Under the pieces are notes generated by a model. That model was not told the origin of the DNA, did no database searches, and was given only the letters and a program-made list of their open reading frames with translations. Positions 5,843 through 30,063 of a DNA stretch of 64,000 bases are shown here, one piece after another; positions within the stretch are counted from its first letter, which is position 1; every line of letters begins with the position of its first letter. The position numbers were made by a program, and so were the translations under genes. The DNA is from Verrucomicrobiia bacterium. Lineage in GTDB: Bacteria; Verrucomicrobiota; Verrucomicrobiia; Limisphaerales; JAEYXS01. The stretch lies in assembly GCA_036405135.1 (NCBI GenBank), contig DASWYF010000020.1, positions 248,001 to 312,000 of the forward strand, in the 5' to 3' direction.

Positions 5843-6820
5843 ATGAAAACTACGCTGACCGACATTAAGGCTAGGCTGTCCTTTGCCTTCACCCTGATCG
5901 AGCTGCTGGTGGTGATCGCGATCATCGCGATCCTGGCCGGCATGCTGTTACCCGCGCTGGCCAAGGCCAAGTCCAAGGCTTTGACGAGCAAGTGCATGAA
6001 CAACATGAAACAGCTCGCCGTGGGCCATGGCATGTATCAGGACGATAACAAGGACAAGATCATGTTCTCCAATCTCCGCCTGGGCGGTGGCGTGGATTGG
6101 ACATGGGATGACCTCTTGAACAACTACGTAGGCGGTGCCCTGACAGCAGCGGAAAAACGTCAGGCCGCCGGAAAGTATCAACTGCCCGTGGTCCTCTGCC
6201 CGGCGGACAAGATCCGCACGTATTGGGCCACCTGGAACCAGGATGCCCAAGGGCGCGAGGTGCAGCGGCGGAGCTACTCCATGCCGCGTGCCACCATGGG
6301 GCGCACCACAGATACCGCTAATTACCTGACTGTTGCCGCCGGTGGCTATCAGATCGGCGCCCTGCCTTTGCGAGATGCTGACTGGCCGCCAAATCCGGCC
6401 AGCCGGTCTGGGTTGGGAATGAACTGGTCTGATAATGATGCGACATCAGCCAGTGGCTGGGTAAAGCTGGATGTCCGCAGCGGCAATACGAGCCCAGATC
6501 CCTTTCGTCAGTTGTCCTATCGCGGGGCGATGGTGACTGAAGCGGTGGGCACCATCCTGCTGACCGAGAGGTTTCACCAGTCCGCCCTTACGACGTATGG
6601 CAACGCTTGGATACCCAATGCCAATGAGCATGCGGTCGGCAATGGCTCAGCCCCGGTGATGGATACCGTGGACCTGAAGAGCCACCACAACAGCCTGATC
6701 AACTACCTGTTCCTGGATGGCCATGTGGAAACTTTGTTGCCCGCAGCCACCTTGGGCAATACGAATCGCGCCACTTTGACCATCCAGACGGGCATGTGGA
6801 CTGTGCTGGCCAACGACTAG
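5843..6820 (+). CDS. type II secretion/pilin-like pseudopilin, PVC type (copy 1)
   Basis: A 325-residue prepilin-type protein. A 15-residue leader ends in Ala, followed by [18 protein letters not shown] with the conserved Glu at mature position 5, so processing by a prepilin peptidase is expected. The large C-terminal head ends with a DGHVE motif, typical of the DUF1559/H-X9-DG class found in Planctomycetes and Verrucomicrobia in many copies. No assembly ATPase, platform protein or peptidase gene is in the window. It is the second gene of a two-gene operon with the lipoprotein and is closed by a terminator at 6845. A close paralogue is 7662-8636. Confidence 0.9.
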
Positions 6821-7661: not shown

Positions 7662-8636
7662 ATGAAGACAAGTTCCAAAGACCTGAAAGCCAAGCTATCC
7701 CTGGCTTTCACCCTCATCGAGCTGCTGGTGGTGATCGCGATCATCGCGATCCTGGCTGGCATGCTGTTACCCGCACTGTCCAAGGCCAAGTCCAAGGCTT
7801 TGACGAGCAAGTGCATGAACAACATGAAGCAGCTCGCTGTGGGCCATGGCATGTATCTGGATGATAACAAGGACAAGGTCATGTACTCCAACCTGCGCCT
7901 GACGGGCAGCATTGACTGGACATGGGACGACCTGTTGAACAACTACGTGGGCGGTGCGCTCACAGCGGCGGAAAAGAAGTCTGCGGCTGGCAAGTTCAAG
8001 CTGCCGGTGGTTCTGTGCCCGGCGGACAAGATCCGGACGTATTGGGCGACTTGGAACCAAGATGCAGCAGGCAATGAAGTGCAGCGGAAGAGCTACGCAC
8101 CACCACGCGCTACCATGGGGTTAATCTCATCTACTGACACCAATTACATTGTAAACCCTACGGGTGGCTACCAGATCGGTGCCTTGACGTTGCGTGCGGC
8201 CGATTGGCCACCCAATCCTGCGAGCCGTTCCGGCATCGGCATGAACTGGTCGGACAGCGATCCGGCCACGGCCAATGGCTGGGTGAAGCTGGATGGGCGC
8301 ACAGGCAATCCGGAACCATACCGGCAATTGGCTTATCGTGGCGCAATGATCACCGAGGCGGTAGATACCATTCTTCTGGCGGAACGCTTCAACCAGTCCC
8401 TGTTGACCACCTATGGCAACTCCTGGATTCAGACAGCCAACGACCATGCCCCCGGCAACGGCTCCGCTCCCATCATGGACGCAGTGGACCTCAAGAGCCA
8501 CCACAACAGCCTGCTGAACTACATGTACATGGATGGCCACGTGGAAACGCTCCTGCCTGCGGCAACACTGGGCAATACGAATCGTTCCACGCTCACCATC
8601 CAGACCGGCCAATGGACGGTTCTGGCTAAGGACTAA
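7662..8636 (+). CDS. type II secretion/pilin-like pseudopilin, PVC type (copy 2)
   Basis: A 324-residue paralogue of 5843-6820, alike over its whole length and most similar in the first 60 residues. The leader ends in Ala, then [18 protein letters not shown] with Glu at +5. The head ends with [11 protein letters not shown], like copy 1. Substitutions are concentrated in the middle of the head, as expected if the two subunits present different surfaces. It shares an operon with the second lipoprotein and is closed by the terminator at 8658. Confidence 0.9.
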
Positions 8637-14223: not shown

Positions 14224-14317
14224 CCCGTGCCGTTAGGCACGAAAGATTCATAGCGGCGGCTTTTAAGCCGCCGTTTCTTTTTTTACCTCCGTCGCGTAGC
14301 GACGGTTGATTCATGCC
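14224..14317 (+). repeat. left flank, three hairpins
   Basis: Hairpins: CGTGCC-GTTA-GGCACG (14226-14241), CGGCGGCTT-TT-AAGCCGCCG (14254-14273) and CCGTCGC-GTA-GCGACGG (14289-14305). The second is followed by a long T-run and may terminate the upstream dehydrogenase transcript. Confidence 0.85.
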
Positions 14318-14353
14318 CTTGTTTTTGTAAATTCAGGAAAACCAAGGAAATCT

Positions 14354-14806
14354 ATGCCCAATACCTTTACCAATCTGAATTACCACATCGTTTTTAGCAC
14401 CCGCAACCGCGAGTCATTGATTGTGCCTGCCCTTGAAGAAAGGGTGTGGGCTTACTTGGGCGGAATCGCGAAATCCCTTGATGCAGACCCGATGTGTATC
14501 GGCGGTATTGAAGACCATGTCCACGCGTTGATACGTATCCCGGCCAAGCACAGCGTGTCCAAAGTTGTGCAATCTCTTAAAGGTGCTTCTTCACTTTGGA
14601 TGAATAACGAAGTGATGCACCACGGCCATTTTGCGTGGCAGGACGGGTATGCCGCCTTCAGTGTGAGTAAATCAAATATTCCCAGCGTTTCCGAATATAT
14701 CCATGGACAGCGAGAGCACCATGCGGCTAAAGATTTCAAGACGGAGTATGTTTTGTTACTCGATAAGCATGAGGTCGAGTATGATGAACGATACTTGTTT
14801 GATTGA
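14354..14806 (+). CDS. tnpA: IS200/IS605-family Y1 transposase (TnpA/RAYT-like)
   Basis: A 150-residue single-domain Y1 HUH transposase. HVH at residues 55-57 is the metal-binding HUH motif. Tyr115 in SVSEYIHGQREHH is the expected nucleophile, and WQDGYAAFSVS precedes it as in this family. It would cut and rejoin single-stranded DNA at hairpin ends. AAGGAA lies 5 bases upstream of ATG 14354, which is why this start is used instead of 14306. All catalytic residues are present, so it looks intact. No TnpB is attached. Whether it is a mobile IS200 or a domesticated RAYT is open; the mirrored hairpin flanks favour the latter. Confidence 0.9.
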   Translation: MPNTFTNLNYHIVFSTRNRESLIVPALEERVWAYLGGIAKSLDADPMCIGGIEDHVHALIRIPAKHSVSKVVQSLKGASSLWMNNEVMHHGHFAWQDGYAAFSVSKSNIPSVSEYIHGQREHHAAKDFKTEYVLLLDKHEVEYDERYLFD

Positions 14807-14906
14807 GGCATGAAACTCTGCCGTCGCTGACGCGACGGTGAAGGGCGAATCCGTAACGGCGGCTTGAAAGCCGCCGCTATGAATCCTTCGTGCCTAACGG
14901 CACGGG
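14807..14906 (-). repeat. right flank, three hairpins (inverted copy)
   Basis: Hairpins: CCGTCGC-TGAC-GCGACGG (14821-14838), CGGCGGCTT-GA-AAGCCGCCG (14857-14876) and CGTGCC-TAAC-GGCACG (14889-14904). The order is the mirror image of the left flank and stem sequences are the same; loops and spacers differ. Confidence 0.85.
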
Positions 14907-25636: not shown

Positions 25637-28315
25637 ATGAAGCCCTCATTTCGTCCAGGCATTGCCACCTTGGTCGCCGCTGCGTTTACACTTTCCCTTC
25701 AACTTGTCTCGGCTGCTGCTCCTGCTGCCGCGCCAACACCGCCTTCGGCATTATATGCGCCGCCGGGTTTCAAGGTGGAATTGCTCGCGGGTGGGGAAAT
25801 CGGCGAGGGGTCTTGGGTCGCGATGACGAAGGATGATCGAGGACGGTTGATCATCAGCCCGCAGCATCGCGAGGCGAATAGCGAGGGTGGGTTGCTGCGC
25901 ATCACGCTCGGGTCCGATGGCAAGGTGGCGAAGCGGGAATTCATCGCCAAACCGCTGTATGACGCGCAGGGCATGACGTTCATCGAGGGTTCATTGTATG
26001 TGGTGGTGAACAAATATAGCTCCAAGTATGCGAGTGGATTGTATCGTATTCGGGACAAGGGGAATGATCTTTATGAAGACATCCAGCTCCTGAAAGAATT
26101 TCCCGGTAATGGCGAGCATGGCCCGCATGTGCCGCGCTTGGGACCGGATGGGAAGCTGTATGTGCTGGCGGGGAATCACACGAAATTACCGGCGGGCATC
26201 GCAGCAGATTCGGCGCATCGGAATTATGCGGAGGATCATCTGCTACCGCGGCAATGGGATGGCAATGGTCACGCCACGGGTATCCTGGCGCCGGGTGGTT
26301 ACATCGTGCGCACGGATTTGGACGGCAAGAACTGGGAGGTGCTTTGCGCGGGTTTTCGCAATCCGTATCACTTCGCCTTTAATAGTGATGGGGAGATCTT
26401 CACGTTTGATGCAGACATGGAATGGGATTGGGGCACACCGTGGTATCGTCCTACGCGGGTGAATCATTCCGTCTCCGGTGGTGAATACGGCTGGCGCGCG
26501 GGCACAGGCAAATGGCCGGCGTATTATCCAGACAGCCTCCCGGCGATCGATATCGGCGTGGGTTGCCCCACGGGCATTCAATTCGGTTACGGGGCCAAAT
26601 TCCCGGCGAAGTATCAGCGCGCGCTTTATGTTCTCGATTGGACCTATGGGCGCGTGATGGCAGTGCAGCTCACACCGGATGGGGCATCTTACACGGGCAA
26701 GATCGAGAACTTCGTGTGTCCGATGGGCTTGATGCAACCGGGTGCGGAGAAGCGGCCTTTCAACGTGACGGATCTCGTCATCGGTAATGATGGGGCGATG
26801 TATCTGACCATCGGCGGGCGGAATACGGCGGCAGGATTGTATCGCGTGACCTATGAAGGCACGGAAAGCACAAAGCCATCGATTGAGCCGAATAAAGCGG
26901 GTGCGAAGGAGCGCAAGTTGCGTCGCGAATTGGAAGCGTTTCACGGACATGTAGATGCTAAAGCCGTGTCTACTGCGTGGCCGCACTTGAACAGCGAGGA
27001 TCGCTTCATTCGTTACGCGGCGCGTATAGCGATCGAGATGCAACCGATCGCACAATGGAAAGATCGTGCGCTGGCGGAGAAGAAAACGGAGGCGGGCTTG
27101 AATGGCTTGCTGGCGCTGGCGCGGGTGGGCGGGAAGGAAACGCAACCGGCGTTGCTGGAGGCGTTGAAGAAATTCAAATGGAGTTCGCTCACGGAGTCGC
27201 AGCAGTTGGACAAGCTGCGTGTTATTGCATTGAGCTGCATCCGGCAGGGGCGTCCGGCGAAAGCGGCGGAAGATGCGCTCATCGCGGAGCTGGATGCGCA
27301 ATATCCGGCGAAGACAAAGTTTTTGAATCGTGAACTGGCGCAGGTGCTGATCTATCTGCGCGCGCCGAATGCGATCGGCAAGACGTTGAAGCTGATGGCG
27401 GATGCGCCCACGCAGGAGGAGCAGATCCATTATCTCTTCCATCTCCGCACGGCGCAGGGCTGGACGATGGATCAGCGGAAGCAATATTTCACGTTTATGG
27501 GGCAGAAGATGGCGGCCTCGCAGAACGTGGAGTTCTACGAGCCGGATTATCCGGGCACGAAGCCGGGCCCGATGCCGATGAGCAAGAATCACAATCCGGC
27601 GTTGGAGAAGTGGTTCAAGGAAGCTGGTCGTGCGTATGGCGATGGCTCGAGCCTCGCGAACTTCCTGAAGAACTTTTATGCGGAAGCGTTGGGTAATCTG
27701 AATGCTGCAGAGCAGAAGGAATTGCAGCCGTTGCTCGCGGTGATCGAGGGGAATCTGAAGGGTGGCAAGCCCGCGAAGTCCACGTTCCCCGCAGCGCAAC
27801 AGAAGGCGTTTGTGAAGGAGTGGACGATGGCGGACGTGACGGGTGATCTGGAAAAGGCGCAGTCGGGCCGTAATTTCGGGAAAGGGAAACAGGCGTTTGT
27901 GGATGCGCAGTGCATCTTGTGCCATCGCTTCGGCAATGAAGGCGGCGGCGTGGGGCCGGATCTGACGGCGGTGTCCGCGCGGTTCAGTGCGCGTGATCTG
28001 CTGGAGAGCATCGTGGAGCCGTCGAAGGTGGTTTCCGAGCAGTTCCAGAACACGACGGTCAAGTTGAAGAATGGCGATGATGTCACGGGACGGTTGCTGA
28101 ATGAGACGGCGACGGAGCTGATCTTGCAGCCGAATCCGTTGATGCCGGAGCGGGTGACGGTGAAGAAGAGTGATGTAGCGAAGCAATCGTTTGCCACGCT
28201 CTCGCCGATGCCGGAGGGGTTGGTGAACGGGTTGTCTAAGGAAGATATCTTGGATCTGATTGCGTTCATGCAATCGGCGGGGAATCCGGGGCATCAGGTG
28301 TTTCGGAGAAAATGA
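25637..28315 (+). CDS. secreted propeller protein with HEAT-like repeats and C-terminal c-type heme domain (PVC type)
   Basis: An 892-residue protein. A signal peptide covers about 1-27. Residues about 40-410 look like a PQQ/glucose-sorbosone-dehydrogenase-type beta-propeller (GFKVELLAGGEIGEGSW, FRNPYHFAFNSDGEIFTFD). A helical, HEAT-like region follows. A c-type cytochrome domain starts at CILCH (759-763), with a candidate distal Met in LSPMPEGL near 858. This architecture is a hallmark of Planctomycetes and Verrucomicrobia, where it is thought to oxidise sugars or alcohols in the periplasm and pass electrons on; no substrate has been established. Divergent from the hydrolase at 24630. The long gap to the next gene holds a hairpin array. 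Confidence 0.85.
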   Translation: MKPSFRPGIATLVAAAFTLSLQLVSAAAPAAAPTPPSALYAPPGFKVELLAGGEIGEGSWVAMTKDDRGRLIISPQHREANSEGGLLRITLGSDGKVAKREFIAKPLYDAQGMTFIEGSLYVVVNKYSSKYASGLYRIRDKGNDLYEDIQLLKEFPGNGEHGPHVPRLGPDGKLYVLAGNHTKLPAGIAADSAHRNYAEDHLLPRQWDGNGHATGILAPGGYIVRTDLDGKNWEVLCAGFRNPYHFAFNSDGEIFTFDADMEWDWGTPWYRPTRVNHSVSGGEYGWRAGTGKWPAYYPDSLPAIDIGVGCPTGIQFGYGAKFPAKYQRALYVLDWTYGRVMAVQLTPDGASYTGKIENFVCPMGLMQPGAEKRPFNVTDLVIGNDGAMYLTIGGRNTAAGLYRVTYEGTESTKPSIEPNKAGAKERKLRRELEAFHGHVDAKAVSTAWPHLNSEDRFIRYAARIAIEMQPIAQWKDRALAEKKTEAGLNGLLALARVGGKETQPALLEALKKFKWSSLTESQQLDKLRVIALSCIRQGRPAKAAEDALIAELDAQYPAKTKFLNRELAQVLIYLRAPNAIGKTLKLMADAPTQEEQIHYLFHLRTAQGWTMDQRKQYFTFMGQKMAASQNVEFYEPDYPGTKPGPMPMSKNHNPALEKWFKEAGRAYGDGSSLANFLKNFYAEALGNLNAAEQKELQPLLAVIEGNLKGGKPAKSTFPAAQQKAFVKEWTMADVTGDLEKAQSGRNFGKGKQAFVDAQCILCHRFGNEGGGVGPDLTAVSARFSARDLLESIVEPSKVVSEQFQNTTVKLKNGDDVTGRLLNETATELILQPNPLMPERVTVKKSDVAKQSFATLSPMPEGLVNGLSKEDILDLIAFMQSAGNPGHQVFRRK

Positions 28316-28325
28316 AATTGTAATT

Positions 28326-28673
28326 CAGCCCCAAGGGGGCTGCGGCTCAAAGCCCAACGTTGCTCCGTTTGACGGAGCTACGTTGTGTAACGTGTGTAGG
28401 GTTGTTCAACCACAACGTGGTTGCGGATGAAGGAAGCTTTTTCGTGAGAATTGTGACGCAACCCCGTTGGGGTTGGATGATTAACACGCTTTGAACCCAA
28501 GGTAGTCCCGCAAAGGCGGGCCAACCTTGGGCTTTGGGACGGAACGCCGTTGGCGTTCTAATCCTGACGAGGAAAAGACTCGCGGCAAGATGCCGCTCTA
28601 CCCGCACTCAGGATGAGTGCGCTACGTTCGCCGAGGTTGGACAGGTGGAGGCACCTGTCCCACTACGCCTCGG
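28326..28673. repeat. array of nine short, mostly 7-3-7 hairpins
   Basis: Nine hairpins within 350 bases. Six are 17 bases long with a 7-base stem and a 3-base loop: 28326 (CAGCCCC/AAG), 28362 (GCTCCGT/TTG), 28407 (CAACCAC/AAC), 28459 (CAACCCC/GTT), 28542 (GAACGCC/GTT) and 28604 (GCACTCA/GGA). Others are CCCGC at 28507 inside an outer CCCAAGGT stem (28496-28531), GCGGCA/AGA at 28582, and GGACAGGTG at 28639 inside an outer CCGAGG stem (28631-28673). Stem sequences all differ. Four hairpins are flanked on the right by CTAC, which on the minus strand gives GTAG just 5' of the hairpin, as in REP elements. Confidence 0.85.
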
Positions 28674-28797: not shown

Positions 28798-30063
28798 ATG
28801 AACACGGTCACCGCTCTGAAGACGGTCAATAAGAACGTCGCCAAAATCGTTGAAGCCGAGATTTCCGCCACGGGCGGTTTGCTCCGCCTCGCCCCTTGCT
28901 GGGTTCCGCGCTCCTTCTTGCAACCGGGCAAGCGCCTGAAGCTGCACCCGGATGATCTCTACGCCTACGGCTTGAACCGGGGCGGTATCGATGAACGCTG
29001 GTTCGCCTCCACGACGCCCGCGGCGAATGAGAATCGCACGCCGGACGAGGGCTTGAGCTATGTGGTGGTGGGCAAGAACCGTTTCACGTTGCAACAGGCG
29101 GTGGCGGAAACGGGCGCGACGTTGATCGGCAAATCGATCTGGGGCAAATACAAGAAGTGGCCGGTTTACTCGAAGTTCTTCGATAACATGGGTCCGATCC
29201 CGCATCACATGCACCAGAGCGCCGCGCAGGCGAAGCTCGTGGGCCAGGAAGGCAAGCCGGAGTCTTACTACTTCCCGCCGCAGCATAACAACGTGGGTAA
29301 CAATTTCCCTTACACGTTCATGGGCTTCGAGCCCGGCACGACGAAGGCGCAAGTGCGCAAGTGCCTGGAGAACTGGAACAAGGGTGATAACGGCATCCTC
29401 GATCTGTCGAAGGCGTATCGCTTGAAGGTGGGCACGGGCTGGCTGATCGATCCTTGCATCCTCCATGCACCGGGTTCGCTCTGCACGTATGAGCCGCAGT
29501 GGGGTTCCGATGTGTTCGGCATGTATCAGAGCCTGGTGGAAGGCCGCGAAGTGCCGTGGAGCCTGCTGGTGAAGGACATGCCGAAGAAGCATCACAAGGA
29601 CCTGGACTTCATCGTGGAACAGCTCGACTGGGACAAGAATGTGGATCCGAAGTTCAAGGACAACCACTATCTCGAGCCGGTGCCGGTCGCGGATACGCGC
29701 AGCGAAGGTTTCGTGGATCGCTGGATCGTTTACGGCAAGGTGGATGGCGAACAGCTCTTCACGGCGAAGGAACTGACGGTTGATCCGGGCGCGAAAGCGA
29801 CGATCACGGATAATGGCGCTTACGGCCTGATCTGCGTGCAAGGCACGGGCAAGATCAACGGCCAGCCGCTCAACAGCCCGAAGCTGATCCGCTTCCATGA
29901 ACTCACTGAAGACGAATATTTCGTGACGGAAGACGGCGCGAAAGCCGGCATCACGTACGAGAACACGAGCGAGACGGAACCGCTGGTGATTCTCCGCTAC
30001 TTCGGCCCGGAAGTGAACCCGGATGCGCCGAAGATGGGTGCGTACCGGAAGAACAAGTTTTGA
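28798..30063 (+). CDS. mannose-6-phosphate isomerase-like cupin protein
   Basis: A 421-residue protein related to class I mannose-6-phosphate isomerases. Candidate metal ligands are HHMHQ (136-140) and Glu155 in KPESYYF, matching the Q-x-H and KPE pattern of the family; a further His lies in LHAPGSL. The C-terminal part is cupin-like. It probably binds one divalent metal and isomerises or binds a sugar phosphate, though the substrate may differ from mannose-6-phosphate. The long hairpin-rich gap upstream means its promoter lies close to 28700-28790; a terminator follows at 30123. Confidence 0.7.
   Translation: MNTVTALKTVNKNVAKIVEAEISATGGLLRLAPCWVPRSFLQPGKRLKLHPDDLYAYGLNRGGIDERWFASTTPAANENRTPDEGLSYVVVGKNRFTLQQAVAETGATLIGKSIWGKYKKWPVYSKFFDNMGPIPHHMHQSAAQAKLVGQEGKPESYYFPPQHNNVGNNFPYTFMGFEPGTTKAQVRKCLENWNKGDNGILDLSKAYRLKVGTGWLIDPCILHAPGSLCTYEPQWGSDVFGMYQSLVEGREVPWSLLVKDMPKKHHKDLDFIVEQLDWDKNVDPKFKDNHYLEPVPVADTRSEGFVDRWIVYGKVDGEQLFTAKELTVDPGAKATITDNGAYGLICVQGTGKINGQPLNSPKLIRFHELTEDEYFVTEDGAKAGITYENTSETEPLVILRYFGPEVNPDAPKMGAYRKNKF

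Follow-up and report, generated by a model that had tools for sequence, protein, structure and literature searches.

The 64,000-nucleotide stretch of Verrucomicrobiia DNA analysed here (hereafter the window; G000:C20:248001-312000, from a genome of 5.8 Mb) carries an array of short hairpins in the intergenic space between a gene for 892 aa that stops at 28315 and one for 421 aa that starts at 28798. The first six hairpins, at 28317-28567, very probably constitute a non-autonomous mobile element, in which two ends of a Y1 (HUH) transposon stand in inverted orientation and the transposase gene is missing. This reading is based on the observed structure of the repeated unit, the covariation of its stems, its family copies, ends of the same kind flanking Y1 genes and its absence from the orthologous site of a sister species. 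The array begins 11 nt past the stop codon of the upstream gene and has three layers: the inverted dimer at 28317-28567, two repetitive extragenic palindromes tagged by GTAG (GTAG-REPs) and one GTAG hairpin without a family.

Structure of the array and of the inverted dimer

Exactly six perfect palindromes with 7-base stems and a 3-base loop (7-3-7) are found between 28326 and 28620, starting at positions 28326, 28362, 28407, 28459, 28542 and 28604 and with the loops AAG, TTG, AAC, GTT, GTT and GGA, respectively. Three additional hairpins lie at 28507-28520, 28582-28596 and 28640-28659. A preliminary description of this DNA had listed these nine hairpins, the loops of the six perfect ones and a CTAC to the right of four hairpins, and the sequence agrees with it on each count. 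Chance clustering of short palindromes is refuted as an explanation: such palindromes do occur in shuffled DNA of the same genome at ~0.07 per kb, but 2000 order-1 shuffles of the array region gave a mean of 0.03 perfect 7-3-7 palindromes and a maximum of 1 against the six observed, five shuffles of the 418-kb contig gave at most two per 350 bp, and the E-values of the covariance model presented below range from 1e-14 to 1e-18. The density, which the preliminary description had proposed to compare with shuffled DNA, is thus beyond chance. Moreover, the array is the densest 7-3-7 cluster (six; the runner-up has five) in a 1.23-Mb sample of the genome, which served for palindrome counts, covariance model matches and hairpin tags.

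The two halves of the dimer share one order of parts: hairpin A, ~20 nt, a central GTAG...CAAC hairpin, ~10 nt and hairpin B, the linker between the central hairpin and B being GGGCTTTG(A/G)G(C/A)CG in both. Unit 1 (28317-28430) reads on the minus strand and unit 2 (28452-28567) on the plus strand, with the A hairpins facing inward, the B hairpins outward and ~110 bp between the unit centres. In unit 1, on the minus strand, hairpin A is CAACCAC-GTT-GTGGTTG (28407-28423, 7-3-7) and hairpin B is CAGCCCC-CTT-GGGGCTG (28326-28342, 7-3-7). Its central hairpin (28355-28385) consists of an outer stem CAACGT/ACGTTG that encloses AG, an inner 7-3-7 hairpin and CA, with GTAG...CAAC inside; the first base of the inner hairpin (28362-28378) is the G of GTAG on the minus strand. 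In unit 2, on the plus strand, the corresponding parts are hairpin A, CAACCCC-GTT-GGGGTTG (28459-28475, 7-3-7), the central hairpin CCCAAGGTAG...CCAACCTTGGG (28496-28531) with an inner stem CCCGC/GCGGG at 28507-28520, and hairpin B, GAACGCC-GTT-GGCGTTC (28542-28558, 7-3-7), which is also found in units of the sister species. The spacer between the inward-facing A hairpins (28424-28458) corresponds to the position of the transposase gene in full-length elements. The dimer thus has the layout of a miniature inverted-repeat transposable element (MITE) or of a REPIN, the inverted REP pair discussed below: two inverted ends, no gene between them and autonomous relatives. The preliminary description had called all stems different and the array free of a copied repeat. 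The stems are nevertheless related: units 1 and 2 are one element present twice, whose stems differ by compensatory changes and are still nearly perfect.

Covariation and spread of the unit family

A covariance model, R1, was built from 37 units of other genomes, with all sequence of the window and its own genome excluded, and spans 111 positions; its calibration was short, so that the E-values are rough, and the margins are large. Within the window, strong full-length matches (model positions 1-111 of 111) were obtained solely at unit 1 (65.0 bits, E 1.9e-14) and unit 2 (80.8 bits, E 2.7e-18), and the third-best match (E 0.007) again falls on unit 2, in the opposite strand. The own-genome sample yielded 16 confident matches (E up to 1.2e-6). 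The own genome has 12 occurrences of the strict central motif, CCCANNGTAG-N(8-36)-CAACNNTGGG, and none of the reversed control pattern. Of the 146 genomes that represent the order, 77 contain the motif, as do 22 of 388 genomes sampled across the phylum. Copies in the own genome fall into several diverged subtypes.

Among 80 distinct units, A and B mostly have stems of 7-8 bp and 3-nt loops, and in 75 of them both free base pairs of the centre are complementary. In 53 aligned units, 95.1% of cells are paired compared with 84.2% after shuffling, compensatory (two-sided) changes amount to 125 cells compared with 35 (0 of 500 shuffles), and most of the covariation signal is lost when the partner is shifted by one column. 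The central motif was itself the search pattern, hence the unbiased evidence of covariation lies only in A, B and the two free pairs. Variable stems combined with constant geometry are therefore a trait of the family, and the stems vary by compensatory change. Counts of 15-mers in the genome sample did not reveal the unit family because its stems vary too much, and other repeats surfaced instead: a palindrome CTGCCGGATTCCAGCCGGCAG (~21 times; noted with the Y1 locus L008), CCCCTCACCCCGGCCCTCTCC (~22) and GAATGACGAAGGAATGAGCAATG (~10-14).

Association with Y1 transposase genes

The own genome contains eight matches to the Y1 transposase family PF01797, at least six of which are flanked by hairpin-rich inverted repeats. 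At loci L221 and L222, the unit type found on either side of a Y1 gene, in inverted orientation, is exactly that of the window. An inverted unit pair likewise flanks the Y1 genes at L241, L247, L249, L250 and L259 and at the own loci L003, L004 and L006. R1 matches both sides of these three own genes and of many Y1 genes across the phylum, in minus orientation to the left of the gene and in plus orientation to its right, and it does the same on a plasmid of Persicobacter (Bacteroidota; E 6e-7 and 3e-6). The orientation of the gene-less dimer equals that of the ends around a Y1 gene, A inward and B outward; among the loci examined, gene-less close unit pairs with a gap of 77-152 bp are arranged minus then plus in 18 of 18 cases. 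Thus the dimer is most simply explained as a deletion derivative of a full element, as its layout suggests. At an E-value of 0.1, R1 matched neither the Bernardetia locus L321, nor the classical IS200 element ISEc46 of E. coli (L322), nor the own Y1 loci L001, L002, L005, L007 (RAYT-like, that is, resembling REP-associated tyrosine transposases) and L008. The own loci L001, L002 and L005 thus have hairpin ends of a looser, possibly analogous kind.

In the 30 best order-level Y1 loci, the strict central motif stands beside the gene in most. The seven that lack it (L248, L253, L262, L264, L266, L268 and L269) mostly carry variants such as CCTAGGGTAG...CAACCCTAGG, relaxed forms being judged by eye; L253 and L266 are among the loci with a clear variant on one side only. 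The 200 bp beside 36 Y1 genes hold a mean of 1.85 hairpins, compared with 0.28 in background windows, with a 3-nt loop in 103 of 131 and a commonest stem of 7 bp. The order-level and own Y1 proteins that were read, of ~150 aa, carry the motifs HuH and Y---Q--HH, except for the RAYT-like L007. All four proteins tested pass the NCBIfam IS200/IS605 model (58-80 bits; cut-off 55), while the RAYT model gave 25-26 for two own proteins (cut-off 80) and no match for the other two. A sequence search of the PDB with the transposase returned nothing at an E-value of 0.01.

The window itself holds a complete Y1 gene (14354-14806; HVH, YIHGQREHH) at 14235-14905, flanked on either side by three hairpins that form inverted repeats and have different stems. 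As R1 finds no match in these ends, they represent a separate or very diverged end type.

The orthologous site and the question of RNA

In a sister species (L055, 94% protein identity), both flanks of the array align at 87-92%, and the segment 28312-28722 of the window has no counterpart; in its place are ~300 bp with other palindromes. The site is accordingly not a clean empty one, as other repeats occupy it. Since the flanks align, the array does not and other palindromes are present, the array seems specific to this lineage, and repeats have landed in the gap more than once. The sequence at L055 2714-3011 has a repeat set of its own, two GCGGACTTTAGTCCGC palindromes in inverted orientation plus a hairpin tagged by GTAG.

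An RNA with serial hairpins, which the preliminary description had offered as an alternative, would be a transcribed region whose hairpins act as RNA, for instance as a regulatory RNA, a terminator or a 3' stabiliser of mRNA. REPs positioned just after genes can influence mRNA stability, and both the strong covariation of the hairpins and the start of the array so close behind a stop codon would suit such a function. However, selection for an RNA made from one strand should favour G-U pairs, whereas selection for DNA folding should not, and across 22 stem pairs we counted 6 G-U cells and 16 A-C cells. The lack of preference for G-U argues for folded DNA rather than RNA. Furthermore, Rfam at its gathering thresholds gave no match for the array, the sister species has the same genes with unrelated sequence and nothing conserved between them, and copies of the unit are found at many unrelated sites and next to transposase genes. 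We therefore regard an RNA function of the array as very unlikely.

The right-hand GTAG hairpins

The remaining three hairpins, all read on the minus strand, are of a different kind. The repeat at 28604-28625 belongs to the family GTAG-C-GCANNNN-loop3-N'N'N'N'TGC (7-3-7), whose pattern was matched 17 times in the genome, 13 times by a perfect hairpin, and 5 times in the control. The family covaries, and an identical copy of the repeat is present at G000:C28:334-355 and in the sister genome G002. The repeat at 28639-28666 is a member of the family GTAGTGGGACAGG...CCTGTCC; its pattern was matched 17 times in the genome and never in the control, and there are 4 matches in G002 and 45 in G004. Both are repeated, and both have what is expected of a GTAG-REP, a completely paired stem of 7 bp or more that is closed by a short loop and preceded on its 5' side, at 0-2 nt, by GTAG; this does not hold for 28582-28601. 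The latter, a GTAG-tagged hairpin GTAGAGCGGCATCTTGCCGC, is the only copy in the genome and its membership in a family is unsupported; as a candidate REP family it was rejected, the pattern GTAGAGCGGC...GCCGC matching no more often than its reversed control. In the own-genome sample, no tetranucleotide is more enriched than GTAG at up to 3 nt on the 5' side of hairpins (30 observed, 10 expected). The RAYT-like own gene L007 is flanked by other palindromes, and neither REP family was seen beside the Y1 genes that were read.

As a landing zone for Y1-associated palindromes, the array is in essence what the preliminary description had suggested. Its wording of several REP families holds for the right-hand part, where two of the three hairpins are repeated GTAG-REPs and GTAG is enriched, and it fits the other hairpins found at the same place in the sister species. 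It does not hold for the first six hairpins, which form one inverted dimer of a transposon end.

Elsewhere in the window, two identical 7-3-7 palindromes ATCGCGATCATCGCGAT lie 1.8 kb apart at 5915-5931 and 7734-7750, and a search for tRNA and tmRNA genes across the 64 kb found none. A relative of the neighbouring 421-aa gene (L072 3001-4825, JAKANS010000009.1) spans 1825 bp compared with ~1263 bp, which suggests an insertion of ~560 bp inside that gene.

Proposed mobility and competing explanations

Movement and recognition of the dimer are proposed by analogy with the IS200/IS605 and REP systems. When a strand becomes single-stranded, for instance during replication, the hairpins may fold, and a TnpA transposase of subclass 1.2, supplied in trans, would recognise them by shape. 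By cutting and rejoining, the transposase would move the gene-less dimer in the way that has been proposed for REPINs with RAYTs, possibly to the present day, and the two right-hand GTAG-REPs would be repeats of their own that inserted into this intergenic gap. We propose that the stems drift by compensatory change and the 7-3-7 geometry stays because the shape is read.

Several observations weigh against the dimer as a mobile pair of Y1 ends. Its transposition is inferred, and neither an exact element boundary, a clean empty site of the window copy nor a target-site feature emerged. An intact Y1 gene with exactly the unit type of the window was not found in the own genome; the nearest Y1 there, L003, has a variant end (CCCA..GCAGC), and the identity of its protein to that of L222 is 48%. 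In addition, some dimers of the genome G082, which belongs to another genus, are nested in an outer inverted repeat with flanking direct repeats of 8-10 bp; therefore some copies may be carried by a transposon of another type rather than by a Y1 transposase.

This nesting is what would favour movement by a DDE transposase, the dimer being part of a MITE in which the hairpins are only carried along. In G082, some dimers are bounded by TAATGCCTTTCGG.../...CCGAAAGGCATTA and direct repeats such as GCTAGGGA and GGGTTAGAAG, but there are dimers without the outer repeat in both G082 and G039, the window copy has no visible one around it, and the association across genomes is with Y1 genes. A DDE-driven origin of the dimer accordingly deserves very little credence. 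Five loci of G082 (L271, L272, L274, L275 and L277), in which the dimer lies inside an outer inverted repeat TAATGCCTTTCGGTAATTCC/GGAATTACCGAAAGGCATTA, look like a DDE-type MITE that has captured a dimer.

A cluster of dead relics, in which old insertions accumulated in a tolerant gap and became immobile in this lineage, would fit the diverged subtypes among the own copies and the failure to find a Y1 gene of the exact unit in the own genome, while the congeneric genome G002 has one at L287 (G002:C485:7000-11010; gene at 2281-2733), amid seven closely similar units within 2 kb, a cluster that looks as if it had been recently or repeatedly active. Against a dead cluster, the stems of the window units are nearly perfect, although neutral decay would erode them, and one of the REPs has its identical copy elsewhere in the genome. 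We consider a dead cluster rather unlikely, and since it differs from a mobile pair of Y1 ends in current activity alone, both can hold together.

Comparison with known systems

HuH together with Y---Q--HH is the published signature of TnpA-Y1 subclass 1.2, described as generally lacking the typical end structures of IS200 (Quentin et al. 2018, PMC6006769). The proteins found here agree with this subclass in both motifs, in their length and in the few copies per genome, and differ in being common in one order of the Verrucomicrobiota and in having structured ends. IS608-type elements, according to the same source, have one subterminal hairpin of 20-25 nt bound at each end. IS608 and ISDra2 of the IS200/IS605 family have an HUH Y1 transposase that recognises end hairpins, as is proposed for the present elements, whereas the ends here are inverted repeats of three hairpins, and the classical ISEc46 is unmatched by R1.

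In REPINs, two palindromes form an inverted pair without a gene, for which mobilisation in trans by a Y1 protein, the RAYT, has been proposed (PMC3116915, PMC3733652). The window dimer is also a gene-less inverted pair, and the two right-hand repeats are structurally ordinary GTAG-REPs. However, each half of a REPIN has one hairpin and each half of the dimer three, and the likely transposase of the dimer scores as IS200-like, with the tested proteins below the cut-off of the RAYT model.

Close relatives are the TIRtrons, in which a Y1 gene (TIRYT) is bounded by long terminal inverted repeats (TIRs), some of them self-complementary ('double palindromic'), that are also dispersed as single, dimeric or grouped copies (Di Nocera et al. 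2013, PMC3733652). Here too, long TIRs bound a Y1 gene and are found dispersed as repeats elsewhere. In contrast, three hairpins follow one another in each end here, with their 20/10 nt spacing conserved and GTAG...CAAC in the central one, a comparison that refers to the text of that paper. Moreover, 20 of 26 published TIRYTs belong to subclass 2.1 with a C-terminal helix-turn-helix (HTH) domain (PMC6006769), while the proteins here have ~150 aa and the Y motif of subclass 1.2 and are not of subclass 2.1 with an HTH; most, and not all, published TIRYTs are of subclass 2.1. The preliminary description knew of no described element that combines variable stems with a fixed 7-3-7 form. The TIRs of TIRtrons are a close relative, so the claim stands only for the three-hairpin form, for which a limited literature search, of text only, found no description; its undescribed status is provisional. 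A text search of the same literature for the central motif gave unrelated matches only.

Significance

The array reveals the form of the ends in a transposase subclass that has received little study, and it explains the rows of unlike hairpins of the same shape that are common in these genomes, which a model of the R1 type can be used to mask and annotate. The three-hairpin end represents a third kind of Y1-linked repeat besides IS200 ends and REPs. As the end is defined and covarying, and both autonomous and gene-less copies exist, the biochemistry of subclass 1.2 becomes directly testable. On balance we favour, with some reserve, the view that TnpA-Y1 transposases of subclass 1.2 have an end architecture of their own, with mirror-image single-stranded DNA ends of three hairpins at fixed spacing that are read by shape; it would be common to Verrucomicrobiota and Bacteroidota and would spawn gene-less dimers of six hairpins as the counterpart of REPINs.
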